DNA from: Cliona cf. orientalis
Taxonomy: Eukaryota; Porifera; Demospongiae; Clionaida; Clionaidae
Length of the DNA: 64,000 nucleotides
Direction of reading: 5' to 3'
Assembly: GCA_963930775.1 (NCBI GenBank)
Contig: OZ005704.1
Location: 3,038,001-3,102,000 of the forward strand
Program-made: the position numbers and the translations under genes
In this document: in pieces, positions 2,001 through 38,392 of the stretch
Numbering within the stretch: position 1 is the first letter of the stretch
Layout: each line of letters starts with the position of its first letter
Notes under the pieces: generated by a model
What the model was told of the DNA's origin: nothing
Seen by the model: only the letters and a program-made list of their open reading frames with translations
Databases searched by the model: none

Positions 2001-5000
2001 TCATGGATTAAAAATCTTTTGCAATTTTGCCGTTTTGTAGTCAGATCTCAACTGAATCATTGTCTGCAAGACATGCCTCTCAAACTTGACCTGCAATGGA
2101 GTAATAATTTATTTAATATGGGGCTGATCAGATTTCTGTACAATCATAGCGTTATGCCACATACTCCAGTCAACTCACATAAGGTTCTTCCGAGAAAACT
2201 TGAGCAAGATTATCAGCCTTCACAATGAAAATGTTGCATAATGTTTGAAGATTCTCAAATAATTCATCCAGAAATGGATTCTATGAACACAAAACAATAA
2301 CTATGATGAAACCACAATGTCATGATTGTATATTATACACAGTACCTTGAATTCCTTAATGACTCGTCTATACTCATTCATATCACAGATGATTATCATG
2401 GCCCCTACAATTATCACCACAAGATGCATGAAAACAATGCTACACAAAATCAAAAGAATACTTACCAATTTCATTGACAGAATACTGCTGTATGTGCTCG
2501 TAGATGACTTGGTGTAGTCTGACCCCCAGCTCCAGCAACACTATCTCAAGGTTTTTGCCATCCAATGACTGTCTCAACACCTTACAGCAATCACTGATGT
2601 AAGTGACTGCTCTGGTGCAGGCCTGTAGCAGTGAGGGTGTGATGGCATGAAGTATGTGTGTGTGTGGGGGGGGGGGGGGATGAAAGAGGGAGAGGAAGGA
2701 GAGAGAGAGGAGGAAGAGCACGTGTGAGAGAGAAAGTGAGAGCGAGAGTGTATCTTGGTACAACAGCGATATGACTAACCTGTGTTCCCTCCGCTACTTC
2801 AGGGACCTCTGGTCGATAGTCAGTCTTTTTCTGATACGAAGAGAGCAACTGTTTCACGTGAGATACTATCCCACCCATGGATCTGCAGTTTGAGAAGTGA
2901 TATTATTAATGATTAATAGCCAAATTATTACTAATGCAATTACTTTTCAATTCCAGACTCAAGCTTCACTTCCAGTTTTGACATAACACTCCTCCTTTCA
3001 TCCATGCACTGTGCAGCCACTGTCGGATTGCTATAATATTATTATACAGAGAGAAGTGCATACGGTAAAGGGTCGTCAGTGCATATGAACACTTACTGTA
3101 TGTTTGGTCGAATGACTTCCATGAAGAGCTTCTCAATCAGGTGCATGTTGATGTTAACATTGCCCACTACCAGACAGAAGTAACCAATGGGAGCAGTCTT
3201 CGGGTCAGCTGCAAACAAAAACAGCATCTATGACCAGCATGCCCAATCAACTACCGTATATATGCGTGGAAATTTTCACTAATTTTGCCCCCTGCTCTCA
3301 TTGACAACATTTTTATCATGCTAACTGTCAATTTTGGATAGAGGATACAGCAACCTGGCGAAAATTTGTTCTACCAAATCTTTTGTAACACAAAGGTAGC
3401 TGAGCTTGAAGAAATTTTTATCCAGTTAAAATTTCCACGTACATGTACATGTACCAGTGGCGGATCCAGGATTTGTGATAGGAGGGGGGACGCGCACTTT
3501 GCGACCATGCCCTCTAACGCTTGACCACACCCCTTAAATTGCCGCTCAACGCTAGTCGACATGTGGTAAATGGAAGTGGCTCAGCCATTTGAGCTAAAAA
3601 GCACTATGTAAGTTGGTTTATAGATAGTTTTACTCCACAGTTGATAGCCCTATAACGTGTGCCTCTCTTGTAGCTATATAGTTTGCATGTGTGGCTCTCC
3701 AAAAAGAGGGGGCACGTGCCCCTTGTGCCCCTATGCTGGATCCGCCTATGTGTACATGGTAGCACATACACCACTGGTAATTTAAAGTATCTACTGTGGT
3801 GCTCAAATCTCAAGATTTGGCATCGTTTGTAGATACATGTTTCTATAGATAGGAGAGAGCACAGTGCAACATTCATTTCATTTTGCTCATGGGGCAATGC
3901 CTAGTCCCAAATTCATGGGGGATCCTAATTAATAATAGTATATTCAAGGTAGAGAACCAAAAGGGGATGGTGAAAGCACCTCTGCCCTCTGAAATAAATC
4001 TGCAGTCATTTAGACTACTAGTATGACCATTCTGCCAAGACCACACACCATCAGCACATAGGTGTATTGTATTCACAAGTATCTCCAAATCCTCACAGCA
4101 TACATTGAGTATCAGTAGTGCAAACAAATACCTGCAAGAGCGATGTCCAGTGCTGTGTGAAAGTGTTCAGTGCAGAGCTTGTCTAGAATGATAGAGTAGA
4201 GTCCCCTAGCCACCTCAGACAGCTCACGCTCACTAAGAAGCTAAGTACAACACCAAAGAAAGTAAATTATATTATAAGCACAGTATATACATGTATACAT
4301 GTACATACACATGATATATCATGATACTTACAGTTGAAGCTCTCTTGATAGCTCCTCTGCACTCGTGGAGAACCGAAGTACACACCTCCTGAGAGACGTA
4401 GGTCTGGTCTCCACTCAGAGGACTGGCAACGGCTAACCTGAACACAATACAACAATAATGGTTTAAACCATTAAAGTAACCCATAGTACCATCTCAAATA
4501 GACACAAGTGCTATTGTCTTACTACAGTGATGCGATCAGACTCCACACACATGCAATGATATGTAGACTGCTTTACTGTACAACCACTACGTTCTACATG
4601 CATAATGTAGATTTTATCATACAGATAAAAATACAGTAAAGAAAAAAATGTGAATCTGTCAAAATGAGCCTCTCGAAAAACATCAAAACTACTTACATTC
4701 ATGCGTTTAATATTTCAGTTGCATATAATTATGGCACAATAAAGATTGTGTAATACAAATTTATGTGATCAACTCTCAACTAGTATAATGAAACTCACAC
4801 ACACAAGACTGTCGCTTTATGTAGTCTAGAAGTTACTCACTTTGATCCCATCTTCTTGGATATTCCAACTGACTCCTGGAATTCACTGAGAGCATGGGAA
4901 CTATGGGCCTTCTGGTGAGCTATTTCAGTCCTGAAATATGAAAAACTCTAATAACATGCTCACATGCAATGCATTCACTCTCTCAACATATGTACCCCTA

Positions 5001-22893: not shown

Positions 22894-23676
22894 GTACTTG
22901 TTCATGTTCTCTAACCATTATAAATGCACCTTAGTTGTTGATCATGTAGCAATCGTTCTATACTTTGTGTGAATGTGTAGTATATCTATGATTGTGGCTT
23001 ATAATTATTCAACTTCATCTGTATGAATCTGTGTGTTTTTTGCTTGCTGTACCAATAGTTTTCTTTTAGCTATAGAATTTTCTATTAAAACTAGTTTATT
23101 CCAAATCAGTTGCATTTTGCTGCTGTCTAAGTTGTCAATTTTATTGACTACTGCGCAAGAAGCTAGATCTCGTAGCTAGAGTTTTCAACAATAATTATTA
23201 GGCTAATATCTATATACATGTCGCTAGATAGCTGTTAATTTTATAATCTGCTTCAACCTTATAACTGATCTATATTATTAAAATGTATGTCTTTCAATAC
23301 TTGTTTTCCAAACTTTCGTGTGTACGGAACTAGCTAGGGATATATATGTACATGGCTGTGATGTGAACGAGTCTACAATGCAAACATAAACCTAGCCATA
23401 AGTAATCGATGTATGTGCACTATGTTCTAAATTAATGTTTTTCACAGAAGAGTCAGTATTTGGATGTCCCAAAAGATTAGTAAGTCTAAAATTAATGATC
23501 TGCCAGTCACAACCACCTTGCAAGTTGCAACGTATATACACAGATACTGCGGTAATACTGTATACTGAAACCATAACATTATTGATTTTTAAGATTAGAT
23601 ATCTTAATAATATATTATTACATCTTAATAGATATCAAAGACAATTGTGCTAGCAACTGAAGATCGAAGTGACAGA
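22894..23676. other. intergenic, no gene seen
   Basis: AT-rich sequence between the ZNFX1-like stop and the next gene's ATG. It includes an AATAAT/TATTAA-rich stretch suitable for 3' end formation. I see no conserved coding sequence, RNA gene or clear TIR element. Confidence 0.5.
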
Positions 23677-26600
23677 ATGACTTACTTGCACATTTTGTTG
23701 TGTCTACTATCAACTCAATTCCTAACTGCAGAGAGCGTAATAAAAAAGATCATCTGCATTCAAGAATCTGAAGGCAATCAACCTTCTGAGTGTTCTAATT
23801 GTAGCTGGTATGGAACTCTTACACCCACCATATCGCTGCTCATTGAAGATAACACTGACTTAAAATTTTGCAATAGCCAAATGAAATTAAGTGACTTGAT
23901 TCATGTTAGCAATAAGACCAATATATCAATTTATGGTCTTAGTATGACAGTCATTCAGTGTCAGAACGTGAGAAATGATCCAGGCAATGGTACTGGATTT
24001 AGGTTCACGAACATCTCACAGCTTCAAATAGGAAACCTATCATTTCATGGCTGTGGTGCAATACACAACGGATCAACTATCCTCAATAACAGCCAAACAA
24101 TGGCCTTCTTAGCGAGCATTTACATTTATTATTCGGTAAATGTACTAGTAAGGCAAGTCAGGATAGAAGATGGGAATGGGACTGGATTAGCAATCATTGA
24201 CACTACTGGATATGTGGAAATCTCACACAGCTTTTTCAATAACAACAGCATCAAGGGTAACACCACCTTGTCAGGTGGGCGGGGCATGTATATAGATTTC
24301 ACTTATTGTCCTCCCGGTGAGGTTAGTGGGTGCAATAATTTCAACAGAAACAACAAAAATTCCACTTATGTGCTTACCTGCAATACCTTTGAGGCTAATC
24401 AAGCTGAATTACATGTAGATCTAGTCATGAAATGGCACCATAAACCTACACCATTGCAATATCGAGCTCAGAAGAAAATATTTCAAGAAATAGGATTCGG
24501 TGGTGGTCTCACCATCTACATCAGAGCTGATGCTTCTGGTAATAATGTTACTATGGAAAATTGTAAATTCTATGCTAATAGAGCTATTCTAGGAGGAGGC
24601 CTATTACTTAGTTTTCACGATGCACCTAGCAATAATTCAGTTTCCATTAGAAATTGCTCTTTCAACAATAACACTGCAGAAAGAGGTGGTGGTGGTATAG
24701 ATGTTGGATTCCTCATTGTTAATGATTACCCAACAGCACAGCTAGCCAGTGGAAATTCTGTAATGGTTAACCAATGCAATGTGACAGGGAACATTGCTGC
24801 ATATGGTGGTGGTACAAAACTATTCAGTACAAGGAACTTACACAGGAGTCTGAACAATACTATTTTGTTTGAAAATTGTCGGTGGGAACAGAACAAAGCT
24901 CAATTTGGTTCAGCTATTGAGATATCTCCACATATCTGGGACATTATTAGCACAGGATACCTGCCACATCTAGAGTTCAAGGACTGCAATTTTTCATCAA
25001 ACTTCAGACAAGAGATTAAAATAGAAGAAGGGCTCTCTGCCAATTACACATGGGGAAAAGGTACAATTCTTCTATCTTCCTTTCCAGTTTACTTTTCAGG
25101 TAAAAACATATTTCAATCTGGTAACAGTTCCGCCTTGTACGCATCATCTAGTTGTATTAAATTTGCTTCTGGATCATACGTAGAATTCAACAATAACACA
25201 GGCTATGAAGGTGCAGCTGTCGCCTTGATCGGATTATCTTCACTTCATGTAGATGATAACAGTACATTTCTTTTCGTTAATAACACAGCAATAACTAAAG
25301 GAGGAGCAATAACTTACCGATCAAACACTAAGCTTGATTTTGTATCTTCAAAAAGTTGCTTTATTCAGTATGTTGGTACTACTAAATCTGTTGAAGAACG
25401 AGCTATAATATTTCAGTTCAAGGATAATAAAGTGAGCACTGGTAGATATCGTTACGGCCAAACAATATTTGCAACAACCATACTTCCATGTGTGAGGGGT
25501 TGCTCTGGAAGGGAAGGCAAGGAATCTGTACATGGCTTAAACTGCATTGGAACATTTAAGCTTATAAATGAAAAGTATCATGAAATAACTACAAGTGGAG
25601 CTAGATTTGCTGTTCAGAATAGCTATGTTAAACATCCGATAAGCGTTATACCCGGTCAAGAAATTGAGTTTGAATTTCAACTTTTTGATGATCTTGATCA
25701 TGAAACATTTGACTCTTACCATGTTTTGCTGGACAAGAGAAGCAGTAGACAAGGCAGTGTACATTTGGATCCAATTTATGAATACATACTAGACAAACGA
25801 GTGCGATTGTATGGAAATCCAGGGGATAAAGCACATGTCTTTCTTGGGACAACTGGATTTAGAGAAATAGCAATATCATTTGAGATCAAGATGGAGCAAT
25901 GTCCTCCAGGATATGTTACCTACTTAAATGCAAAACTGAAAAGCATTGAGTGTGTTTGCTCTGCCAATACACCCAATAAAACTTACATGGGAATAGAACG
26001 CTGCAATCAAAATGAACTAAAAGCATACATGAAACATGGCTATTGGTTTGGCTATGACGGTTCACTTGAAACCGAAGAGACTTTGAAATCAGGATACTGC
26101 CCTCAAGGATTCTGTTTTGTAAAAAGATCTGAACTATTTAATTCGAGCAGTGAATCACTCACTCAATTTGTCTGTGGTAACTATCGACAGGGAAAGCTGT
26201 GTGGCAGTTGCATTGCCAATCATTCACTCTATTTTCACAGCAGCAACTATAAATGCTTCGCCAACAAGAATTGTGAAATAGGATTCCTATTGTATTTAGT
26301 GTCAGAAATAGTTCCAGTATCTATCCTATTTATGGCTGTTATTTTCTTCAATGTCAGGCTTACTTCTGGGGCTGTGAATGGGTTCATATTCTTCATTCAG
26401 TTCATTGATACTATATTTATTGATGCGAATGGGTTAATTCCATTGCATCCCATTCTAAGTGTATTAACGTCAGCTTATCTCTTCATATACAGGATGTTTA
26501 ACTTGAACTTCTTCACCTTGGATCAGCTGTCATTCTGCTTGTGGAAGGGAGCAAACACTCTTGATATCCTCGCTATTAAGTACGTTACTATCATTTATTC

Positions 26601-27531
26601 TCTTTTTCTGGTGTTCATAACTGCACTTCTAATGAAACTTTGCAACATTACACGTTTTAAACAAAATACAGTGTTTCAACTTACATCATCAGATACCTCA
26701 GTTAAGGGAACCGTAATCCATGGCTTTTCTACCTTTTTTGTGATGTGCTACTCTCAGTGTGCAAAAGTAACACTATTCTTGTTGACTCCCTCAAATATCT
26801 ACTCAGTAGGGTCACCAAACAAGCACAACACCACAAAAGTAGTTTTCTATGCTGGAGACTATTTATACTTCTATAATGCTCACTTAAAATACGCTATTCC
26901 AGCCTTAATTATTGGAATTGTGCTCATTTTGATGCCCCTGATTCTTCTCTTGATTTATCCTCTGTGCTATAGAGTATTTGCTACACTTGGAATTCAGGAA
27001 ACCAGATTTGTAAAAGTTCTTTGCAAGGTAGCACCTCTGGAGAAGATGAAGCCACTATTTGATTCATTTCAAGGTTGCTATAAGGATAAATACCGTTTCT
27101 TTGCTGGACTCTACTTTTTGTACAGACTTGTAGCATTAATTAGCTTCCTTGCACTAGATTCATTGACTATCTTTTACATTGCACTGCAAATACAATTGAT
27201 TCTAATGCTGGCTCTTCAGGCGACCACCTATGCTTACAGAAAACGCTCACACAACATCCTAGACACGTTGCTTTTTGCTGATCTAGCTATCATTAATGCA
27301 CTAACAATGTTCAACTACAAACTAGCAGTGAGCAATGATAATCTTCTTACTATTAATATACTGAGTGGAATTCAAGTATTTCTGATTGTACTACCACTGC
27401 TGTACATACTCTGCTTTGTTTGCTCAAACATTATTATGAGAATCAAGATGAATAAAGCCGCAAAAAAGGAAGAAAGTTTAATGGACACTCTGGGACTTAT
27501 TGACTACCGAGAGTATAACTCTACTATGTAA
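23677..27531 (+). CDS. beta-helix ectodomain, Cys-rich, multi-TM surface protein
   Basis: Single-exon CDS of 1,284 codons from the ATG at 23677, which opens a signal peptide (MTYLHILLCLLSTQFLTAES). Residues about 60-600 carry many NxS/NxT sites and repeated short blocks of the type xNNNx...GGGI/GGGL, characteristic of a right-handed parallel beta-helix (pectin-lyase-like fold). About 740-865 is Cys-rich (CPPGYVTYL, CVCSANTPNK, C-G-N-Y...G-K-L-C-G-S-C). About 866-1250 holds nine or ten hydrophobic segments, then a short basic/acidic tail. It is therefore a plasma-membrane protein with a large glycosylated ectodomain. I do not see GPS, class-B GPCR or ion-channel signatures. Similar large single-exon genes occur as expanded families in sponges as far as I recall, but their role is unknown to me. 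Confidence 0.85.
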   Translation: MTYLHILLCLLSTQFLTAESVIKKIICIQESEGNQPSECSNCSWYGTLTPTISLLIEDNTDLKFCNSQMKLSDLIHVSNKTNISIYGLSMTVIQCQNVRNDPGNGTGFRFTNISQLQIGNLSFHGCGAIHNGSTILNNSQTMAFLASIYIYYSVNVLVRQVRIEDGNGTGLAIIDTTGYVEISHSFFNNNSIKGNTTLSGGRGMYIDFTYCPPGEVSGCNNFNRNNKNSTYVLTCNTFEANQAELHVDLVMKWHHKPTPLQYRAQKKIFQEIGFGGGLTIYIRADASGNNVTMENCKFYANRAILGGGLLLSFHDAPSNNSVSIRNCSFNNNTAERGGGGIDVGFLIVNDYPTAQLASGNSVMVNQCNVTGNIAAYGGGTKLFSTRNLHRSLNNTILFENCRWEQNKAQFGSAIEISPHIWDIISTGYLPHLEFKDCNFSSNFRQEIKIEEGLSANYTWGKGTILLSSFPVYFSGKNIFQSGNSSALYASSSCIKFASGSYVEFNNNTGYEGAAVALIGLSSLHVDDNSTFLFVNNTAITKGGAITYRSNTKLDFVSSKSCFIQYVGTTKSVEERAIIFQFKDNKVSTGRYRYGQTIFATTILPCVRGCSGREGKESVHGLNCIGTFKLINEKYHEITTSGARFAVQNSYVKHPISVIPGQEIEFEFQLFDDLDHETFDSYHVLLDKRSSRQGSVHLDPIYEYILDKRVRLYGNPGDKAHVFLGTTGFREIAISFEIKMEQCPPGYVTYLNAKLKSIECVCSANTPNKTYMGIERCNQNELKAYMKHGYWFGYDGSLETEETLKSGYCPQGFCFVKRSELFNSSSESLTQFVCGNYRQGKLCGSCIANHSLYFHSSNYKCFANKNCEIGFLLYLVSEIVPVSILFMAVIFFNVRLTSGAVNGFIFFIQFIDTIFIDANGLIPLHPILSVLTSAYLFIYRMFNLNFFTLDQLSFCLWKGANTLDILAIKYVTIIYSLFLVFITALLMKLCNITRFKQNTVFQLTSSDTSVKGTVIHGFSTFFVMCYSQCAKVTLFLLTPSNIYSVGSPNKHNTTKVVFYAGDYLYFYNAHLKYAIPALIIGIVLILMPLILLLIYPLCYRVFATLGIQETRFVKVLCKVAPLEKMKPLFDSFQGCYKDKYRFFAGLYFLYRLVALISFLALDSLTIFYIALQIQLILMLALQATTYAYRKRSHNILDTLLFADLAIINALTMFNYKLAVSNDNLLTINILSGIQVFLIVLPLLYILCFVCSNIIMRIKMNKAAKKEESLMDTLGLIDYREYNSTM

Positions 27532-28248
27532 ATCTTGAGAGTAGCTATCACAAATGAACAAAGAGCAGCATGCAGTAGCAGAATTAATAATAGCTTACTA
27601 TTAATATAATATAGCTCAGTGTTATTAAAATTATAGTATGCCATATACGTGTGCAGTGTGGAAATTAATCAACAGGGGTTTTTTGGCTCATGGCAAGCCT
27701 GTCACTAGTACAGTTTAAAATTGCTTACCATGTATCCTGACATACACGTGGACATAATTATTATTATAATACACGCATACAGGGAGTGGACACAGGATAT
27801 AGAGTAGGGTAGGGTATTATCGGACGGAGGCAGTTACTGGACGCCTCGCACATAATTGCGTTTATACGGCCAACGGTATTACGTAATCTTTCACCATTTG
27901 CCATGAGGTAGGGGCCATGTAAGTACTACCTATATCTCATTTCTTGTGGTGTGCATCCACACAGAAGCTGCACAATGCTGCTCTAAACAGTTGCAACTTT
28001 TTCGTATTTCTTTCAAGAAGCTGGTTTTTCATGGTAGCTAAGATTTATGCATATTATTACTATGGTACAGCAGCATCAATTTTTGATGAATTATTTTTTC
28101 ATTTGGTATGTGCATACTAGAATGTATGGAGAATTTTTAGAATTTTTTCCGGAATTTTTTGACCTTATTGTAAGCATAAACCAGATATTTTTTGTAAAGA
28201 ACTTTCAGAGGTAGTTTCTGGACAATGCATATATTGCATTACTTAATG

Positions 28249-28447
28249 TAGAGTAAGCGACCAATCATCGGACACCGTCGAAATTCGGACGCCTTTCCTG
28301 GGGAAACGGAAGATGCTATCGACGTCGATCTTGCACCAGTATATGCATCCTCCCACACGCTACTTTGATCCCGCATCTGAGCTTCCAGCTTTGCGGGGTG
28401 TGGTTTTTACGTCCAATTAAAGGATGCGTCCGATATACATCATAAAT
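28249..28447. repeat. left subterminal inverted repeat of the 9.9-kb element
   Basis: Starts TAGAGTAAGCGACCAATCAT and holds CATCGGAC, ATTCGGACGCC, GCGTCCGAT and further CGGAC-type motifs. Inverse partner at 37135-37333. The outer 447 bp (27802-28248) carries more CGGAC/TGGAC copies but is otherwise diverged from the right arm. Confidence 0.85.
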
Positions 28448-28769
28448 CGTCCAGTTTGGTCGATATTCGGACGCAGCTCGTAAAATTGTTTTTGAAGAGT
28501 TTTATTTCACTGAATTTGGAAATTAGTAACCTCTATAGTATATATATCCACTATTAGGCCTCCAAATCAGACCCCCCCAGTGCCCTTGTTTGTGCTAACC
28601 GCGAAAACCACAAAATCGTTACTAGCGTGATCAATTTCCGGACAGTGGCTTAACCTGCCATGAACGATGATATCAAACATTTCACACATATAGAGCATGC
28701 ATAAGATATTATAAAGTTATATTATTAGATTTAGACCAGTCTACATCATGTTGCAATTGGTATCAGTCA

Positions 28770-31700
28770 TTAAGTGCTACATAGGGAACATTGCCAGTGA
28801 TCTGGAACTTTCTGGGGGGCAATTTTCACACATGAACAGTGATACCATTGCTTACAGCCTTCACACTCAATCATGAAGGAATCATACTCCTCTGGTAGCT
28901 TGCATGTACAGTAAACTTTGATATTCAGTGATCTATCAGTTGGGCGAGGTAAAAATTCTCGTGCTCGTGACACCTTAGGAAATGGTGACATCACTCCATC
29001 CGATAAGCACGTGTACAGATGAGATCTCATTTGTTTTTGATTGAATGAAACGTCAGCAGGTGAGTTACCTGCACACACTTCAACTGCATATGCCACAGCA
29101 AATAATCCACAATCTAGAGTTCCATTTTGCTGCTGGACAGGTAGCTTCCTTAGCTTCAAGGTAGTATGGTTTTGGGGAACGGAATAAATCTTGCATATCT
29201 GCAAAACTGTGGCTAAGTTGAGCATCATGAATGAGCCCAAACTATCCATCACTTGAATCACTCCATTACCACAGCATGATACACACAACCAATGCTCGGA
29301 GCTCCCTACAGATCCGTGACAAAATTTATCTTTATACAATGCTACGTACCTCTGGCATTATAGTAGTGTACAAACCTGTGTGTAGTACTTGTACAGACGG
29401 AACGTCTCGTGATATTGGCTTGAAGTCAAGATGATGGCCAAGACATGTACTTTGAAACCCTTTCAGTCTAGGATACTGCTCACTCAGCAGTGTCTGTGCT
29501 GCATTGATAATATTATCTGTGAGTTCTTTCCCTGTTTGCAAGACTTCACGATCCCTCTGATTGAGAAAGAGGTCTTGTATCCACCAGTTAATGTCTGGAT
29601 CAGGGTCATTGTCAGAAACCAGTACAGGCTCAGAAGTCACCAACACTACAAGTATATATTATTATCATGACAGGGTCACAGGGGGTGGTGGTGAGGGGGG
29701 GGGGGATTCTTATTAATTTTTGTTACACCATCCTATTAAGCACCTTGTTTTCTCTTCCTCCTAGCCACACCACAACGTGGGTTCCAATGGTCATCCTTTG
29801 CAGTTGTCAATGATGTTTGCGGGCCTGGGCTATCTGCTTGATGATGTCGAGCTGGATACTTTGAGTCCTCTGAATATTTTTGACATTATCTTGTCATAAT
29901 AATAATAATTTATCATTAATTAGATTCAAATTACCTCTTCCCCTAGTTGATCTCTGAAAACAATTATTTTCTTTCAAATTGTCGACTTGCAAAATTTTAG
30001 AATCATCTCCTGTATTTAATTATTATGCTGCGTGGCATAGGTAGCTAGAACTATGCTGGCCCATCAGATAATGCTATTATTGTCAGCCAATGTACTATTA
30101 ACTAAAAAATTGAGAATTTTGCTCGCCTATAATTGCTGCCCCCCAGTCATGTCATAATGCCATTTATTACCTATTTTCACTCTGCTTCTGGTCAACGGAC
30201 GAGGACGGTCTTCCTTGTTTGGTGATAATCCTGCAGGATCTCTTGGTGTAAATCCTGCATTAAATTTTTATAATAATAATGCGAGTCTGCTCATGAATTT
30301 GCATATCATAATAATATTATTTAGAAAAATGGTATGTGCATAAATAACCTGTGCAGTGTGGATTTTAACGGTCGGTCATCGGCTAAAATCCGACCAACAT
30401 GGCTCCATGGCCGCCCAAATCACTCCTGGTCGGACATATGGCCGCCTTACCATCGCTTGCCAGTATAGTTTGCAATGCACGTGCGTTCTAATACTGCTGG
30501 CTGACAGTGGTCACTAGCTGGGGGATGTTAGTAGTAGTAGTCACAAGTTACCATACTTAGCACCCACTTAGCTTACAACTTTTACTACTCTGTGCTGTGG
30601 TTTGTGGTAACTGTACCTTTGCAGCTGAACATACATGTAGCTATAGCTGTATAGCTGTGCTTGTGCATGCAAGCCATTGCTGCTACCTTCCCTTGCAAAG
30701 ACACTAGTCTTATATCTGGCTGTATTACGCATGGAAATGTACAATGCATATGATGTCCGATCAACAGTTAGTGATGTCTGATCAAACTGGAATATGGTCT
30801 GACATTTGTCAGATCATCAACAAAAAATTATAATCCACACTGCTGTGGGGGGAATCCATTTCCTCTTGGATGACCTAGAAGTTGGTTTTTTTTTACTGCT
30901 CTGACTGTTTGATGGCAATCCTAATCCCAGATCAACTGAAAGCTTTGTGACTCCTGGATATTAAGTGAATAGCTTGATAATTGTGGAGTGGGAAATTATC
31001 AAGGGAACCTGATTCTTTCAACCATAGAAATATGATCAAAGGTACTGCCACATTTGTACCACAAGTGATGAATTTGTATGTTATTGTTGTTAGTACAACT
31101 ACCTTGTTTTCCTAAAGGCAGGTCTTTCTGGTGTGACTTATTTTCTTGCAACAACATACCACAAGGTGACTGCACTGCTTCTATAATAATAAACACAATA
31201 ATATTATTATTAATTAAGATTATAAGATTTATGTACCCTCTTTTTTTCTATGCTTCATAATCACCAACTGAGTACCATCATCATGTGAAAGCTTTGAAGT
31301 TTCTGCATGCATGTATAAAGTGGATCTGCATATTAAGCATGATGTAAAAATTAATATGACATTGTAGTACCTGGTTGTGACTGTCGGCTTCTTCTCATTG
31401 ATCTGCAAGGAGGCTCTTTTCCGTATTGACTGCCGTTCACTGTACCTGGTTGTTCTCTTCTCCTGGTTGATCTGCGAGGAGGCTCTTTTTTGTACGGACT
31501 GCCGTTCACTGTACCTGGTTGTCTGCTAATTCTTCCAGTTGATCTTTGAGGAGGCTTTTTTCTGCACTGACTACCTGCTGCTGTGAGTAAAATTAATGGC
31601 ACAGTAACATGGGGAAAATGTCTGAAGTAAACGTAAGGGAGGAAAGAGGGAGTATAGGAATACACATGCAAACAATGTGACAAAATTAATACTATAATTA

Positions 31701-31996
31701 CATTCTTTTCTTTTTAAGTTAGTCAACACATCAGACGATTCTGTTGAATCTGCATTAATTTGAAATCAAGCAACGATACAAGCTTGTACTTAGCATAGGT
31801 ACCATAGAGAAAGGGTGTGTCAACCAGATAGTCATCATTGTCATGAGCAGAATCTGACCAGTGAACAGTCTTCTTGGTAGAGCCTACAAAAATATATTTG
31901 ATCAAGAATCATCTTTTTACAGATGCCACAATTATAAGGGAGCCTGCAGTAAACTGCTCACCAGCTATATTTGTGGCTTCTGCCCACCTTGGTTCT
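28770..31996 (-). CDS. Ulp1/C48-family protease with PHD finger (transposon gene, multi-exon)
   Basis: Clear exons: 29305-28770 (stop TAA), 29645-29376 (donor GTTTGT), about 29868-29744, about 30255-30192, with further candidates near 30930-30850, 31190-31100, 31577-31372, 31884-31690 and 31996-31960. The protease part has the expected SEHW (His), VMDSLGS (Asp), QQQNGTLDCG (Gln and Cys) catalytic pattern of Ulp1-like cysteine peptidases, preceded by NIINAAQTLL as in transposon-borne relatives. The last about 50 residues form a C4HC3 PHD finger (VYCTCKLP..., MIECEGCKQWYHCSC, WQCSLC). Upstream exons are Lys/Arg/Ser-rich with a tandem QPGTVNG...KEPP.RS.RR repeat, NLS-like. C48 enzymes cleave ubiquitin-like conjugates, and C48 genes occur in several DNA transposon groups. 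The middle exon borders are tentative. Confidence 0.65.
31372..31577 (-). repeat. coding tandem repeat, basic (about 60-70 bp x 3)
   Basis: Three near-copies of a unit encoding G-S-x-Y-x-K-E-P-P-x-R-S-x-R-R...QPGTVN, inside a minus-strand exon of the C48-PHD gene. DNA-level repeats include GTACCTGGTTG at about 31368, 31443 and 31511. The peptide is strongly basic and resembles a disordered DNA-binding or nuclear-targeting linker. Confidence 0.7.
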
Positions 31997-32140
31997 GTGA
32001 GCAATATATAATAATTATATAAAAATAATATCGCCAAGCATAATTATTGCATTCGTAGTTGCTTACAAGTACAGATTCATCCATAGATATTATCACCTTC
32101 GGGCAGATCAATTATCGGTCACTCAAAAATACAAAATCCC

Positions 32141-32586
32141 TAGCCTCGTCCCCAGGCCCTTTGAGGAGGAGGAGGAGAAAGGGCCTGGTACACACTATTT
32201 TCGCATGCTCCGTTACCCTAAGAATCTTAGGGGATCAGATACTATAGTATACTTCCTAGTATACTTGCCCTTTGACCTTTATTCCTCGCGCTTTCGCGAG
32301 GAGAAAATGGCAGACTCAGACGGATCGATTTTCGAGCGAGATTTCGAGACAGCTGTTGCCATGCCGATTGGTGGTGGGACTTGGACTTGGAACAGCAATG
32401 GCTCGCATTTAGCATGCGCGTTATCGCAAAGGTCAGGAGGTCATTCCGTATTCTTTACATGTGTTGGACCGTTTCACTATTATACACGTGGTAAGGATTC
32501 GTGTATGGAAAATTTGACACATGCACAAACAGTGTGTACCAGGTCCTTTCCCCTCCTCCTCCTCAAAGGGCCTGGGGACGAGGCTA
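32141..32586. mobile_element. MITE with TAGCCTCG termini and 8-bp target duplication
   Basis: Inverted ends TAGCCTCGTCCCCAGGCCCT (32141 on) and its complement ending at 32586 extend for about 50 bp with few mismatches. AAAATCCC flanks both sides (32133-32140 and 32587-32594). An 8-bp duplication fits hAT- or P-type elements. It is 446 bp with no gene; the frame running 32205-32723 crosses it and is spurious. Nested in the 9.9-kb element. Confidence 0.85.
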
Positions 32587-32896
32587 AAAATCCCCATGCT
32601 TGGGGCGTGAGCCAAGTTGATCCAGACTTGACCTCAACTTGCCATGTGGTCACGCTGCCCAGTACTGACGGACGGATAGAACCGATTGCTCACAATGCAT
32701 ACGGGACAATAAGCGATGCATAGTGTACCAGTGAGAACTGATTTTGAGTTAAGGGCACTATTAGCAACTGAATTATTCTTTTCCAAATTTGAAGTACCTA
32801 GCACCCATATTATTATAAGCCAGAGGATTATTGTGCCAAGTCTGCTACACATGCACACTACAGAATGTAATTACACTTCTGCTTAGTGGGTTTGTA

Positions 32897-33357
32897 TACC
32901 GTATGGTGGGTAACTTTCGTGGGGTGCTAATTTTCGTTATTTTCGTGGTTGACTTGGCAATCACGAAATTTTCCCACCCACGAAAATTAATGCCTCTTCT
33001 TTGTAATACTAAGCCATACCTACAGAGACTTGGACAAAAGGCATGAGATAGAAGAATATTAATGTCGACGATCTGTCAGCTGGATGACAGCGGCTACTGT
33101 TACTTGCTAACACTGGAAAGTATTGGCCACGCTGCCACGAAGTTTGTGGCCACTTCCATCATCATGGACTCGCATAGTACCATATCACCATATCGCGAGT
33201 GCGTGTATTGATTACATCATCGCTTGTGCAACAGTGCCACGCCACTAGTCTAAGACTGGTCGCTGTCACGAATTTAAAATCATGATAATTATTTTTGAGG
33301 GCCTTTTCGGACTTTCCACGAAAATTAGACCCCACGAAAATTACCCGCCATACGGTA
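32897..33357. mobile_element. TACCGTATGG MITE, complete 461-bp copy
   Basis: TIRs TACCGTATGGTGGGTAACTT and, inverted, TACCGTATGGCGGGTAATTT, continuing for about 38 bp through TCGTGGGG. Flanked by TA. A second internal CACGAAA...TTTCGTG palindrome follows the left TIR. Two decayed relatives lie at 10223-10365 and 14208-14620. Confidence 0.85.
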
Positions 33358-33818
33358 TAACTTAAGCTTATCTCATGTGTCATAATTACCCCGCGCACAT
33401 GTACAAGGGGTAAAACCATTGGTTTGTCCCTCTGTTGTGGGCTACTCTAGCGAGCTAAACTCCCTTTTGCTTACCGCTCAGTGGGCGTGGTTTTTCAAGC
33501 TCATAAATCGCTAAAATTTAAATGGCTTACTAGTGCTACAAAACGTGCATTCTCTATTCAGCATACCTGAGGTTTATCAATCACACCCACTCTACTGGAA
33601 GCAACTGTACATACTCAAACTCAGTGTAGGAAAGTGTTGTCAAGTCATAATAACAGCTCTGCAGTAGAGTATTGCAATACTATGCTACAGAGAATTCGGG
33701 GTATGTGCTATAATAATAATATATAGAGAGAGCTCTAGTTATTGTGAAGGCTTAATGCCAGCCTACTTCCCTAGCCTATAAAGTAAGATGTACCACCCAT
33801 GAGCTATCTTTTGTTATG

Positions 33819-35555
33819 CTACAGCAAAAGATTAAGGTCCCGGTACCTACACGAAAATAAAATAGTAACGTTTCCCCGAAATTTACCTTTTTTCTTAATC
33901 TTCCTTGCAATTTTTTGCTCCTGCTTCAACCTGGCTCTTTCCTCTCGTTTTCTCTTCCTTTCTTCTTTCTTTTGGGCCTCCTCTTGTTTTTTCTTTTGCC
34001 GTTCTTCAATTAGCTGTAGATTTTCCATACTTGTGAGAACTTTTCCGGCAGACTTGGTATGCTTTGTTGGTAGTTCATTTGGTGGTATATTTGGAACCAA
34101 AAAGTTACTGATACTTGTAGCATGTCGAAGGGATACCCTGGCAGGTGCTGTAGTTTCTTTTTCTGAGTTCGACAAAGAAGACAGAGCTGGGCTCAAGGAT
34201 CGTGGAGTGGATGAAATACTGGATAGTTCGCTGAGCGGGCGTGTACACCGGCTGGGACTATACAAAGGTATGTAAGCTAGCCCAGTCCTCTCAGCAAGAT
34301 TCTCAGGATGGAATGATGAAAATTTGTCATCCTTTGAGTTAATTGCTGATCTATTAAAAGGATAAATTCCAGTAGCTTTGAAACTTGCAATGATATTGGG
34401 TGGGGATACTGCTTTGTGCCAAGATTTGGAAAATATCTCACAAAATTCAACTCGGGTAACTACCTGCCCAGGATTTTTAGTAGAGAAATTGTGACATTCT
34501 TCTCTCCAAGCAACCTTCAATGGAGAAAAGCAACCCTTATCTAGCGGTTGAGTGATATGTGTTGTATGGGGAGGTAATGCAAAGACAATGACTTTGCTTT
34601 CAGCAGCTAATTTAATAGTTTCAGGACAGTAATGAGATGAGTGCCCATCTAGTAGTAGTAATACCGGACGAGCAGGAGGAATGTACTCCAAAAAATGACA
34701 CTGAAACCAGTAGTAAAACAAATCACTAGTCATCCAACCATTACTTGATAGTCCATAAAGTGTTCCTGGAACTTCACCCTCTGTCCATTTCTGATTCAAA
34801 GATTTTCTGTCAAAGACAACAAAGGGAGGAAGGGCTTGTCCGCACGCACTTGCACATGCAAGAACTGTCACTTGTGACTTATCTCCACCAGTAAGGTAGC
34901 TGGGATTTTTTGAGCCAACTACATCTACTACCTTTAGGCACTTGGGATTCAATGGGAGCCCAGTCTCATCGCAATTGTAGATTCTTTGTGGCACATCATA
35001 GATTTTGTTAGATCGAAGGCATTCTTCAAGCATGTCATAGTAGCGAAGCAGCACATCATTATCAGAAGCCATTGCTCTTGCGTATGAGAGTGATACTGCT
35101 GACCGCAAGGTAAGATTAGGATGCCTTTGGCGAAATCTTTCCCACCAACCATTGGTAATAGTTGTTTGAATTCCTTTATCATCTAGTATTTGCTGAACTA
35201 ATGAAAATACTTGTTTCCTTGTGTGGGGGTACCCAATCCTGGCAGTTTGCACCAAGAAACTCGTAAGCTCTTCTTCTTCTTCTACAGTTAAATATGGATC
35301 ACGCCCTGACTTCGCCCCCACCAAAATTTTTCCAGATACATGATCGTGCAAAGTTGACTTGGGAACTCCATACATAGCAGCAGCCCTCCGAACACTTTCC
35401 CCCTTCTCATAGGCATACATAGCATTGCTCATACATTCATCATTCCAATTATATCTGTAAGGACCACGAATCGGTATACTTTTCGTAGTAGGGATACTTA
35501 ACGGCTTAGATTTAGCCCGTACAATACGTTCTGCCAATGGTTTGTGGGGATACAT
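33819..35555 (-). CDS. pogo-like DDE transposase with CENP-B-type HTH
   Basis: Open for 578 codons from the ATG at 35555. Residues about 35-75 form a psq/CENP-B N-terminal helix-turn-helix (ESVRRAAAMYGVPKSTLHDH), about 85-150 a CENP-B HTH region (GWWERFRQRHPNL), and about 190-400 a DDE_1 catalytic domain. Acidic residues are in YNCDETG, LLLLDGHSSHY and QPLDKGCF, the DDD arrangement of the pogo/Tigger/jerky group. The C-terminus is a Lys/Glu-rich coiled coil (EERKRKREERARLKQ). The frame is uninterrupted, so the copy may be active, recent or domesticated. At 33886 a donor (KKKG|GTAAAT) lies just before the stop. Phase 1 there matches a downstream exon at about 31996 (PRWAEATNIAG), so the transposase may splice into the C48-PHD gene rather than end at 33819. 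Confidence 0.85.
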   Translation of the reverse strand: MYPHKPLAERIVRAKSKPLSIPTTKSIPIRGPYRYNWNDECMSNAMYAYEKGESVRRAAAMYGVPKSTLHDHVSGKILVGAKSGRDPYLTVEEEEELTSFLVQTARIGYPHTRKQVFSLVQQILDDKGIQTTITNGWWERFRQRHPNLTLRSAVSLSYARAMASDNDVLLRYYDMLEECLRSNKIYDVPQRIYNCDETGLPLNPKCLKVVDVVGSKNPSYLTGGDKSQVTVLACASACGQALPPFVVFDRKSLNQKWTEGEVPGTLYGLSSNGWMTSDLFYYWFQCHFLEYIPPARPVLLLLDGHSSHYCPETIKLAAESKVIVFALPPHTTHITQPLDKGCFSPLKVAWREECHNFSTKNPGQVVTRVEFCEIFSKSWHKAVSPPNIIASFKATGIYPFNRSAINSKDDKFSSFHPENLAERTGLAYIPLYSPSRCTRPLSELSSISSTPRSLSPALSSLSNSEKETTAPARVSLRHATSISNFLVPNIPPNELPTKHTKSAGKVLTSMENLQLIEERQKKKQEEAQKKEERKRKREERARLKQEQKIARKIKKKGKFRGNVTILFSCRYRDLNLLL

Positions 35556-35712
35556 CTTCACGTTTGATTAACCTATACAACAAACAGATATTAGAATCTA
35601 TTCTAGAGTACATACAAATTTAATATTAATAAGCCTTGGAAATCAGCAGACAATGGTTCAATGTGTTCTTAGCTATAAGTAAACTCCCATCATAACAACT
35701 ATATATAGTGTA

Positions 35713-36180
35713 CAGTGGAACCCCGCTTAACGGACACCCCTCAACGGCCGATACCTGTGATATAACAGACAATTCTAAATGTCCGTATTGTATTTCCATA
35801 GACTTCAATATATTCAAATCCCCTCAACAGCGGACACCCCCCGTATAACGGACACTTATTTTGGTCCCGTTCGAGCCTGCGCAATATTGAACAACCTCAC
35901 ATAATGGACAGTTAGGCCACACCCACCATTAGAATAGGTCGGTTTTAGCAACCAGTAACTACTAAATATGTCTCAGATTCTTGCTTAGGAGCTGGCAGTT
36001 GACAGATCTCTCATCGATATCAATACGGTCTTTTTCGTCGTCCACAGAAGTGCTTTATCATGGCTGGCCACGATTGTAGGAGGGGCGTGGTCAACCACTA
36101 ACCCCTGAGCTAAGAGATACCTCGCTACAGTGGACAAAATTTTTGGTCCCAATGGTGTCCGCTTTAGAGGGGTTCCACTG
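35713..36180. mobile_element. Tigger/pogo-type MITE
   Basis: Ends CAGTGGAACCCCGCTTAACG and, inverted, CAGTGGAACCCCTCTAAAGC, flanked by TA (35711-35712, 36181-36182). CAGTGGAACC is the characteristic Tigger-like terminus. It is 468 bp, non-coding, and sits about 150 bp upstream of the pogo-like transposase ORF. Internal sub-repeats (CAACAGCGGACACC, GTATAACGGACAC) look like spaced binding sites. Confidence 0.85.
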
Positions 36181-37134
36181 TACCATAACACAGAGGTTTG
36201 CACCATTATAATCATAATATTATACCCTCTCATGACTGGGAGGTCTGGGACTGCAGGGTTGCAAATGTTAACAGGATTAGTATCATTCAGGGTGTGTCTA
36301 TAAAATATAGTTAAAATAATGGCTGCCAGCAGCAACAACAGTGTGTGGCAGAGTGCTCAGTGCATGGTCAACAGTAAGAGAGAGTCCTGTTAACAATGGT
36401 CATAAAATTAATTGCACATGCATGCTTCGAGCATTACAAAAGTTAGCTGATGAAGACTTACCCAACTTGATATCATCTTTTTATTATATTAAATGTATAA
36501 GCAATATCCATAGTATAAATATGTACAGAGTACATGCAACACTTGAATCAATATCCATACATGAGTCCCCTCCCACCTTCTCCTCCCATTTATGATTCCT
36601 AACATTTTTGGTTTCTTGGAGTTCGAGGATCGGACAGGGATTGTCTAGTGACAAGTGCATCCCCCCAACCACGCATATATACACACATGCACACCAAAAA
36701 AGCTCTTATAACATAGCGTCATCATTGATACTAAGGTCCAAGCCAAGACAATATTGAATTTCTTTGACCGGTCTCATGATTCTAGCAACCCTCATCTAGA
36801 TCTTAAAGAAGTTGCCTAATATCATTAATAGCCTAGTACGTACCTTGAAAAGTACTCAGGGACACTAACACCACGTACCGTCTGATACAGCCCGCCAAAG
36901 ACGATTCTGAGGCTTTACAAACCGCAATAGGCACTACTGCGCATGCGTCCGAAAAACGATCTCGTACTTGAGGTCGGCAGAATAGTTGCGGTTGGCTCAG
37001 CCTAGAGCCCCCTGGTTTCTAGTTTGGAGCCTGAATAGAGGGTAGGTAGGTGTACGTGCATACCGACTTTGACCACCCTGCGTCGCTCGTAACGGCGTAA
37101 ATAGTTCGTGTCCGAAAAATGATATTATCGTACG

Positions 37135-37333
37135 AATTGTGATGCATATCGGACGCATCCTTTAATTGATCATTAAAACCACACCCCGCAAAGCTGCAAG
37201 CTCAGCTGCGGGATCAAAGTAGCGTGCGGGAGGGTGCATATACTGGCGCAAGATCGACATCGATAGCATCTTCCGTTTCCCCAGGAGAGGCGTCCGAATT
37301 TCGACGGTGTCCGATGATTGGTCGCTTACTCTA
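37135..37333. repeat. right subterminal inverted repeat of the 9.9-kb element
   Basis: Inverse partner of 28249-28447, ending GGTCGCTTACTCTA. It lies 373 bp inside the right terminus. The outer part (37334-37706) retains CGGAC/GTCCG motifs but diverges from the left arm. Confidence 0.85.
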
Positions 37334-37708
37334 TTCATGAATTATTTCACAATTTTTGGATGAATCTTCAAATCTAAAGGCAGGATGTAAGAAGGATATT
37401 GTTCGTGATGCATTTGATGCCATTTATGTGTCATATATTGATAACCGCAGCCGCGATTTTTTTATGTATTTTCTTTCACCTTTGTCCGGTAATGGTCGAC
37501 ACTGTCCGCTCTCTACCTCCAGAACCAGCGGTACTTTGTGCGCACGCCCTGCACGAACGGAAGTAGGTGGGGCCATGGTTAAGGGCTCGTTTAGTAGGTG
37601 GTGTTTGGGCCTATCTGTGGTTGCATAGTCGCGATCTAGTGCTGCTCGTTTGTCTGTGATATAACGCTGTCTTTTCTTAGCTGTCCGAAATATGCCAACC
37701 CTACTCTA

Positions 37709-38392
37709 CCGTATAGCGGGAAATTTTCGAGGGTATTAATTTTCGCTGTTTTCGCGGATCAGGGTGAATCCGCGAAATTTTATACCTCGAAAATTTCCCG
37801 CTATACAGTATGACTTGACGACCCGTTCCTACACTGACTTAGCTCGAGCATGCGCAGTCCCACCAGCACATGATATCAGTAGAATGGGTGTGGTCGATAT
37901 AAACCACAAGGCATGCTGAACAGAAAATGCACTATTTGTAGCGTTAGCAAGCCACTTTCGAAAGATACTGCCTCCTTTTCGAAGAAAGAGCGAACATATA
38001 GCTGATATTTTTCTTGGGACGTGTCCAACTATTGTTGAAGACTCGGATTTTGTGACAGCTACAGCGTAGGGGTCACGGACGTTGCCGGGCTCTTGGATAC
38101 ACGTCAGGTTTTCTCCAATTTCAGCCTTCCAAATGCTTTGATACTCGTGGTAGCCACGGATCATCACCTCCACAACACAGCCTCGTAGTTCAGACATAGT
38201 TAGCTCGTGTTTGACACTACCTCCATATGATGATTTCCACGTGCGTATGAAAGAAGAGGGGCGTGGTTTTATTGCATCCAATTTGAGGGTGTGGCTTTGT
38301 CTCAGGGCTGATCCTCGAAAATTAAAACGCGAAATAGTTCAAAATCCCACATCCGCGAAAATTGCTACCCTCGAAAATTTCCCGCTATACGG
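37709..38392. mobile_element. TA-flanked TIR element carrying a HIRAN-like ORF
   Basis: Left end from 37707 TACCGTATAGCGGGAAATTT; right end, inverted, TACCGTATAGCGGGAAATTT, perfect over about 28 bp through TCGAGGG. TA lies at 37707-37708 and 38393-38394. The left 103 bp is itself a foldback: its inverse (CCTCGAAAATTTCCCGCTAT) recurs at about 37781-37806. The left TA is shared with the end of the 9.9-kb element. Total 684 bp with a 122-codon ORF between the ends. Confidence 0.75.
37829..38197 (-). CDS. HIRAN-like domain protein inside a small TIR element
   Basis: From the ATG at 38197 the frame runs 122 codons. The open frame extends about 28 codons upstream without ATG, so a spliced 5' exon is possible. 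The core GYHEYQSIWKAEIGENL, EPGNVRDPYAVAV, VGHVPRKIS and LFLRKGGSI follows the HIRAN-like pattern (W..x..G..L...EP.N..D..AVAV....VGH.P). HIRAN domains bind single-stranded 3' DNA ends in HLTF; stand-alone relatives are common in some invertebrate genomes. It is entirely contained between the TIRs. The role is unknown; it may be mobile cargo, or a captured domain. Confidence 0.5.
   Translation of the reverse strand: MSELRGCVVEVMIRGYHEYQSIWKAEIGENLTCIQEPGNVRDPYAVAVTKSESSTIVGHVPRKISAICSLFLRKGGSIFRKWLANATNSAFSVQHALWFISTTPILLISCAGGTAHARAKSV

Follow-up and report, generated by a model that had tools for sequence, protein, structure and literature searches.

A probable two-gene pogo transposon with a predicted Ulp1/SENP-type protease-PHD gene, nested in a short inverted-repeat element of the sponge Cliona cf. 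orientalis

Elements of the Tc1/mariner-pogo group are usually regarded as single-gene transposons, and a locus of the demosponge Cliona cf. orientalis raises the question of whether a pogo element can carry another gene besides that for its transposase. The locus lies in a stretch of 64,000 nucleotides of contig OZ005704.1 (assembly GCA_963930775.1, positions 3,038,001 to 3,102,000, forward strand), here called the window, in whose numbering the coordinates below are given. As first predicted from the sequence, it holds on the minus strand both a pogo-type DDE transposase gene and a gene, here called C48-PHD, for a predicted C48-type cysteine protease with a PHD finger. The window very probably contains a recently moved two-gene pogo transposon of 9,081 bp, with a Fot-like domain set, nested in the TA of a short miniature inverted-repeat transposable element (MITE); this judgement applies to the nested two-gene element and not to the function of its second protein.

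The original prediction described a single pogo element of 9.9 kb bounded by 27802 and 37706. The inverse termini on which it was built, GAGTAGGGT...CGGAC, are present at these positions with a TA outside both, and the agreement of the two ends and their TA flanks does favor one unit. Matches in the same genome, however, identify the outer ends as the two halves of a short MITE, the left one of 447 bp (27802..28248, starting GAGTAGGGTAGGG) and the right one of 373 bp (37334..37706, ending ...ACCCTACTC), which with one TA between them make up about 0.82 kb and are flanked by target duplications TA at 27800..27801 and 37707..37708. The left end gives 40 scored matches, the window included, at 93-100% identity (the best 40 of 144 candidates), and with 27800-28450 as the query the window is the only scored match that runs beyond query position 451. 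Of the seven other copies fetched, five (L003, L004, L005, L007 and L008) have contiguous halves, base 451 leading into window 37333 onward at 96.8-98.7% identity; what the outer ends bound is therefore a short MITE and not an element of 9.9 kb. The remaining two copies are L002, with the left half alone within the fetched stretch, and L006, with both halves and about 280 bp between them, perhaps another nested element.

Inside the MITE lies the 9,081-bp element, from 28251 to 37331, with terminal inverted repeats (TIRs) of about 200 bp, the left at 28251..28455 on the plus strand (starting GAGTAAGCGACCAATCATCGGAC; matching the right end at 93% over 202 nt) and the right, located by an inverted-repeat search, at 37127..37331 on the minus strand. 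The TIRs agree at 17-20 of 20 positions per block across the first 200 bp, and with the adjoining bases they form inverted repeats of 224 nt, 89% complementary, at 28249-28472 and 37110-37333. These had been taken for subterminal repeats of the larger unit; the repeats are real, and it is as ends of the nested element that they are to be read. The dispersed CGGAC motifs that had also been pointed out are densest near the ends: CGGAC or GTCCG occurs 4 times in each 224-bp repeat (17.9 per kb), 16 times in the 8.6 kb between the repeats (1.9 per kb) and 14 times elsewhere in the window (54.1 kb, 0.26 per kb). The outer MITE and the inner element have similar ends (GAGTA, CGGAC, TA).

The insertion event can be read directly, because two intact MITE copies, L003 and L008, preserve the empty site, ...ATG-TA-TTCATG..., with a single TA, where the window reads ...ATG-TA-GAGTAAGC...GCTTACTC-TA-TTCATG..., with TA at both 28249..28250 and 37332..37333; with the ends of the element written out, the filled site is GAGTAAGCGACC...GGTCGCTTACTC with TA on either side. 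The 9,081-bp element was therefore inserted into the TA of the MITE, duplicating it. An empty site with a single TA had been proposed as a check on the 9.9-kb unit; it exists, and it belongs to the inner element. The element has two other full-length copies, on contigs C6 and C4, with the same ends, TA on both sides, different flanks and both genes; substitutions among the three amount to 0.24-0.58% across about 4.13 kb. A fourth copy, on contig C1, is partial and matches the first 2.4 kb of the element at 94%. Because two more near-identical full-length copies share the ends and both genes, the gene pair moved recently as one unit. Three inverted-repeat stretches lie inside the element, an insertion at 32141..32586 that is also in the C4 and C6 copies, one at 32895..33359 whose middle is inverted in the window relative to those copies, and one at 35710..36183 common to them, so a unit already containing these stretches has moved. 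Other copies bounded by the outer ends lack the DDE gene, which has its own closer TIRs and TA duplication, two observations that the original prediction had itself set against a 9.9-kb unit. The single 9.9-kb element was rejected on the empty site in L003 and L008 and retains virtually no likelihood. The recruitment of a C48-PHD gene by a pogo element, as first proposed, holds in that the gene lies inside the element's own ends, while the bounds of the element had been misplaced.

The transposase gene occupies 33819..35555 on the minus strand, with its first ATG at 35555, and encodes HTH_psq, HTH_Tnp_Tc5 and DDE_1 domains. The DDE_1 (PF03184) match is strong (E 5.6e-28, 98.1 bits against a cut-off of 22), and the two helix-turn-helix domains, at 28.0 and 23.1 bits respectively, also exceed their cut-offs. 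D199, D306 and D342, whose codons begin on the minus strand at 34970, 34649 and 34541, form a DD35D triad that is invariant in all nine sequences aligned, the window and eight relatives from its own genome. Together with the TA target-site duplication of the pogo superfamily, found here at the inner element, these features place the predicted transposase in that superfamily with a Fot-like domain set; the label Fot-like follows the published family description (PMC7386202), and the transposase tree comprised relatives from the same genome. Compared with solved structures, the DDE protein gave a single weak and irrelevant match. Scanning viral contigs with the DDE alignment gave one relative, a distant pogo fragment at 32% identity, on a contig that also has a phage-like-looking frame and is probably a chimera.

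The C48-PHD gene lies closer to the left end, likewise on the minus strand. Its last exon (28770..29305) encodes the C-terminal half of a clan-CE protease domain, with the catalytic H, D, Q and C, followed by the PHD finger (about 28773-28920); a 70-nt GT-AG intron (29306..29375) separates it from an upstream exon (29376..29658) that encodes the N-terminal half of the domain and whose 5' limit is that of the open frame and not a proven splice site. Joined across the intron the two frames are uninterrupted to the stop, and a frameshift in the window's gene was rejected, the break being this intron. The intron also joins in frame in two divergent loci, L057 and L059 (60 and 206 nt); GT and AG stand by eye at the matching place in L058 and L060, and in L061 the donor could not be placed. 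In the C4 and C6 copies the C48-PHD frames are longer, because the frame is open across the intron. A basic, repeat-containing frame over three 66-nt direct repeats (31351..31713, minus strand), without a Pfam match, is a candidate, unproven, further upstream exon.

The second gene is thus read from its sequence as encoding a predicted Ulp1/SENP-type cysteine protease with a PHD finger. All nine sequences of an alignment that omits L052, L058 and L061 have H95, D111, Q150 and C156; four of the nine come from pogo families (window, L057, L059 and L065). A profile of the protease half matches SENP1 (E 2.4e-7), its best solved-structure matches, with H, D, Q and C aligned to residues that we take to be the catalytic ones of SENP1. 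The finger exceeds the Pfam cut-offs (PHD_5, 34.6 bits against 27; PHD, 30.2 against 24), and its nearest solved structures are PHF2 (E 4.4e-11), EBS, PHF8 and BPTF, with TAF3 found by profile; the ligand of these is presumably H3K4me3, which the finger may also bind.

The pairing of the two genes recurs in divergent pogo families of this genome. A search for C48-PHD gave 148 loci, from the best 150 of 360 candidates with two second pieces of one locus omitted, and a search for the DDE gene gave 72 loci, from 100 matches with further pieces of the same loci omitted (the best 75 of 805 candidates scored). Among the matches listed, a C48-PHD match lies no more than 10 kb away from 25 of the 72 DDE loci, in every case (25/25) on the same strand and downstream of the DDE gene; three of these pairs are the copies of the window's own element. 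When C48 loci were placed at random, uniformly along the contig stretch spanned by hits and without transposon clustering, the mean was 2.0 pairs and the maximum 7 in 2,000 runs. Five divergent C48-PHD loci were fetched with 7.5-8.5 kb each, and in four of them the C48-PHD gene is preceded on its own strand by a DDE gene, 59, 56, 50 and 44% identical to that of the window, with C48 identities of 53, 55, 54 and 43%; in the fifth, L060, there is no upstream DDE gene within the stretch fetched. In L057, L058 and L059, the three of the four paired loci with both ends in hand, one TIR pair (about 203, 360 and 229 bp) encloses both genes, and the terminal motif is TA-GAGTAAG(C/T)GATCA. L065 is compact, with 91 nt between the last codon of its DDE frame and the opening of the C48-PHD frame. 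The co-occurrence that the original prediction suggested checking is thus found in three full-length copies of the window's family and in several divergent families. Third codon positions vary most in all ten comparisons made (five family pairs, two genes each), as would be expected for coding sequence under purifying selection.

Several observations speak against the reading as a two-gene element or complicate it. Among the matches listed, 47 of the 72 DDE loci lack a C48-PHD partner at a distance of up to 10 kb; these may include missed C48 genes, since only the best 150 of 360 candidates were scored, and a second C48-PHD query (131 rows) added no pair by eye. Two unpaired loci were inspected: L079 (1-1146) is a copy of the L061 family (96.5%) that has lost the C48-PHD part through an internal deletion and kept the end of the transposase gene and its right end, the left end not being found in the 1.4 kb fetched upstream, and L081 belongs to a pogo family with a PHD-finger stretch (3140-3250) ahead of the right end and no protease domain found, so the protease is not in every member. 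Several copies also show decay, namely one in-frame stop in the DDE gene of the C6 copy, a frame break in the C48 gene of L058, a short DDE frame of 399 amino acids with a stop in L059, and, in the partial C1 copy, a C48 gene with stops and a shift of frame. Estimates of synonymous divergence (dS, NG86) are undefined or saturated in the ten comparisons above. Finally, the two gene trees disagree on L065, which the DDE tree groups with the window's family (support 0.952) and the C48 tree with F71 and F73, and the correlation of the DDE and C48 distance matrices is limited (Mantel r 0.50, with 66 of 5,000 permutations as high).

Both trees cover nine families of the genome, the C48 part being partial for L058 and F69. 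By C48, one clade comprises the window, L057, L058, L059, L061 and F69 (support 1.000) and another L065, F71 and F73 (0.978); the two stay apart when four additional C48-PHD sequences enter the tree, on a branch whose support is 0.792. The pairs L057 and L058, L061 and F69, and F71 and F73 are recovered in both trees. Because the trees agree only in part, the C48-PHD cassette was probably gained twice or exchanged. It also occurs in frames of at least 1,000 amino acids of another gene family that account for 28 of the 150 rows listed, 18 of them on contig C1. At L066/L052 (region C2:5618900-5622374) it is C-terminal in a frame of about 1,145 amino acids; the 985-residue N-terminal stretch of that frame, the one examined, matches nothing in Pfam at E values of 1 or below. 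It may be a divergent transposase.

Of four further DDE loci fetched, L063 and L064 each carry their own Cys/His-rich finger, and L062 has neither finger nor protease. These fingers, PHD- or RING-like and uncalled by Pfam, are C-terminal on the pogo-type DDE frames (L063:75-2900 and L064:2-3274). Next to the MITE itself, an inverted-repeat stretch at 37707-37810 (arms 37707-37732 and 37785-37810) abuts its right TA, and an open frame of 1,299 residues that includes a right-handed beta-helix domain (PF13229) adjoins it at 23632-27531.

How the C48-PHD gene came to lie in the element, and what its protein does, can be explained in several ways. It could be a chance passenger from a second transposon, inserted once into the pogo element; C48-PHD frames are abundant (at least 150 listed, including those in the large frames of the other family), and inverted-repeat stretches do occur inside the inner element. 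A single accidental insertion is nevertheless highly improbable, for divergent families repeat this gene order and strand inside one TIR pair, the catalytic residues have been conserved, the codons change in the manner of constrained genes, and the six-family C48 clade that includes the window is fully supported. No TIRs flank the C48-PHD gene alone around 28770-29658, in a repeat search with a minimum of 20 nt. A two-gene pogo transposon is therefore the reading retained. Its ends and TA duplication are observed, and its structure is of the cut-and-paste type; the minus-strand transposase would bind the CGGAC-rich TIRs, cut out the unit and paste it into a TA. The second protein would be an isopeptidase for SUMO, or for another ubiquitin-like protein, kept at active chromatin by its PHD finger, where it might aid the element by lifting SUMO-dependent silencing at or near the element's promoters or, alternatively, by de-modifying the transposase and repair factors. 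That it counters SUMO-dependent silencing is a possibility to which we give slightly less than an even chance. The broader proposal, that this pogo lineage carries a chromatin-targeted SUMO isopeptidase as an anti-silencing protein and that the cassette is a traded module, which pogo families gained or exchanged more than once and which a further abundant and apparently mobile gene family of this genome also has, is advanced tentatively.

A target in transposition or repair, and not in silencing chromatin, is somewhat unlikely: Bao et al. (2010; PMC2836005) propose a role for Ulp1 and OTU domains in ubiquitin-like control there, but a PHD finger resembling those of PHF2 and BPTF points to chromatin. 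It is unlikely that the protein serves mainly as a tether to target sites or chromatin, with a protease fold that binds and does not cleave; fingers without the protease do recur (in L081, where no protease was found, and as Cys/His-rich fingers in L063 and L064), against which stand the four catalytic residues invariant in the nine aligned sequences. Several scores make the chemistry of the clan-CE domain less certain. The Pfam cut-off of Peptidase_C48 (20.7 bits) is not reached by the window exon alone (15.6), L059 (17.6) or L065 (17.2), nor by any single pogo-paired protein tested; L052, which reaches exactly 20.7, is not a pogo protein, and L065 scores higher with the YopJ acetyltransferase (22.5 bits) than with C48, both below cut-off. 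With a weak, sub-cut-off RickCE match in L046 (22 bits) and OtDUB among the profile hits, a deubiquitinase or acetyltransferase activity would be an alternative; since SENP1 provides the best solved-structure matches of the protease profile, we consider such non-SUMO activity distinctly unlikely, an estimate that overlaps with those for the anti-silencing, repair and tether roles.

Parts of this combination have been described in other transposons. Gao et al. (2020; PMC7386202) give pogo elements as 1.2-5.2 kb long with open reading frames that encode transposases, and the word "protease" is absent from the main text of that paper. The inner element shares with the Fot-like elements described there DDE_1, HTH_psq and HTH_Tnp_Tc5, the DD35D triad, the TA duplication and TIRs; it differs in its length of 9.1 kb, in a TIR of about 200 bp that falls between the four stated TIR types, and in an additional, non-transposase gene, length and gene content being descriptive of pogo elements rather than defining. 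Ginger1 (PMC2836005) likewise places a Ulp1-type protease and a PHD finger inside a DNA transposon (Ginger1-9_HM), but there a C-terminal Ulp1/PHD part is fused to a Gypsy-integrase-type transposase, whereas here C48-PHD is a separate gene beside a DDE_1 transposase of the IS630/pogo type. CryptonF and CryptonS (PMC3212892) carry a C48 peptidase, in some CryptonS as an additional protein, and differ in having a tyrosine recombinase and no DDE transposase; "PHD" is absent from the main text of that source. Mutator-like elements with ULP1, as cited in PMC2836005, share the Ulp1-type domain and differ in their Mutator transposase.

Exceptions to the single-gene rule for Tc1/mariner elements do exist. 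The TBE/Tec elements of ciliates (PMC7325037) are of Tc1/mariner type with several genes and long TIRs (about 700 bp), but their extra gene is a recombinase and their triad DD34E, in contrast to the protease-PHD gene and pogo DD35D of the inner element; the words "protease", "PHD" and "SUMO" are absent from the main text of PMC7325037. MarCry-1_FO (PMC3212892) is also multi-gene and of Tc1/mariner type, its extra gene being a Crypton and not a protease-PHD gene. The literature searched, which includes PMC7386202, PMC7325037, PMC2836005, PMC3212892 and PMC6875170 and has Repbase reports and most subscription journals outside its coverage, yielded no case of a Ulp1/C48 or PHD gene in a pogo element. 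Ulp1/PHD in Ginger1 and C48 in Cryptons and Mutator-like elements are thus already known, and within that literature a pogo element with a C48-PHD gene is new.

Because a second, enzyme-like gene has been kept while the transposases diverged to about 44% identity, selection on these elements appears to act beyond cut-and-paste. In Caenorhabditis elegans, SUMOylation of HDA-1 is required for Argonaute-directed silencing, and in flies Piwi interacts with a SUMO E3 ligase (PMC8131101); this makes a SUMO-protease-like gene that travels on a transposon and includes a chromatin reader a candidate for transposon-encoded counter-defence. Through its presence in other large frames as well, C48-PHD would be a portable module.

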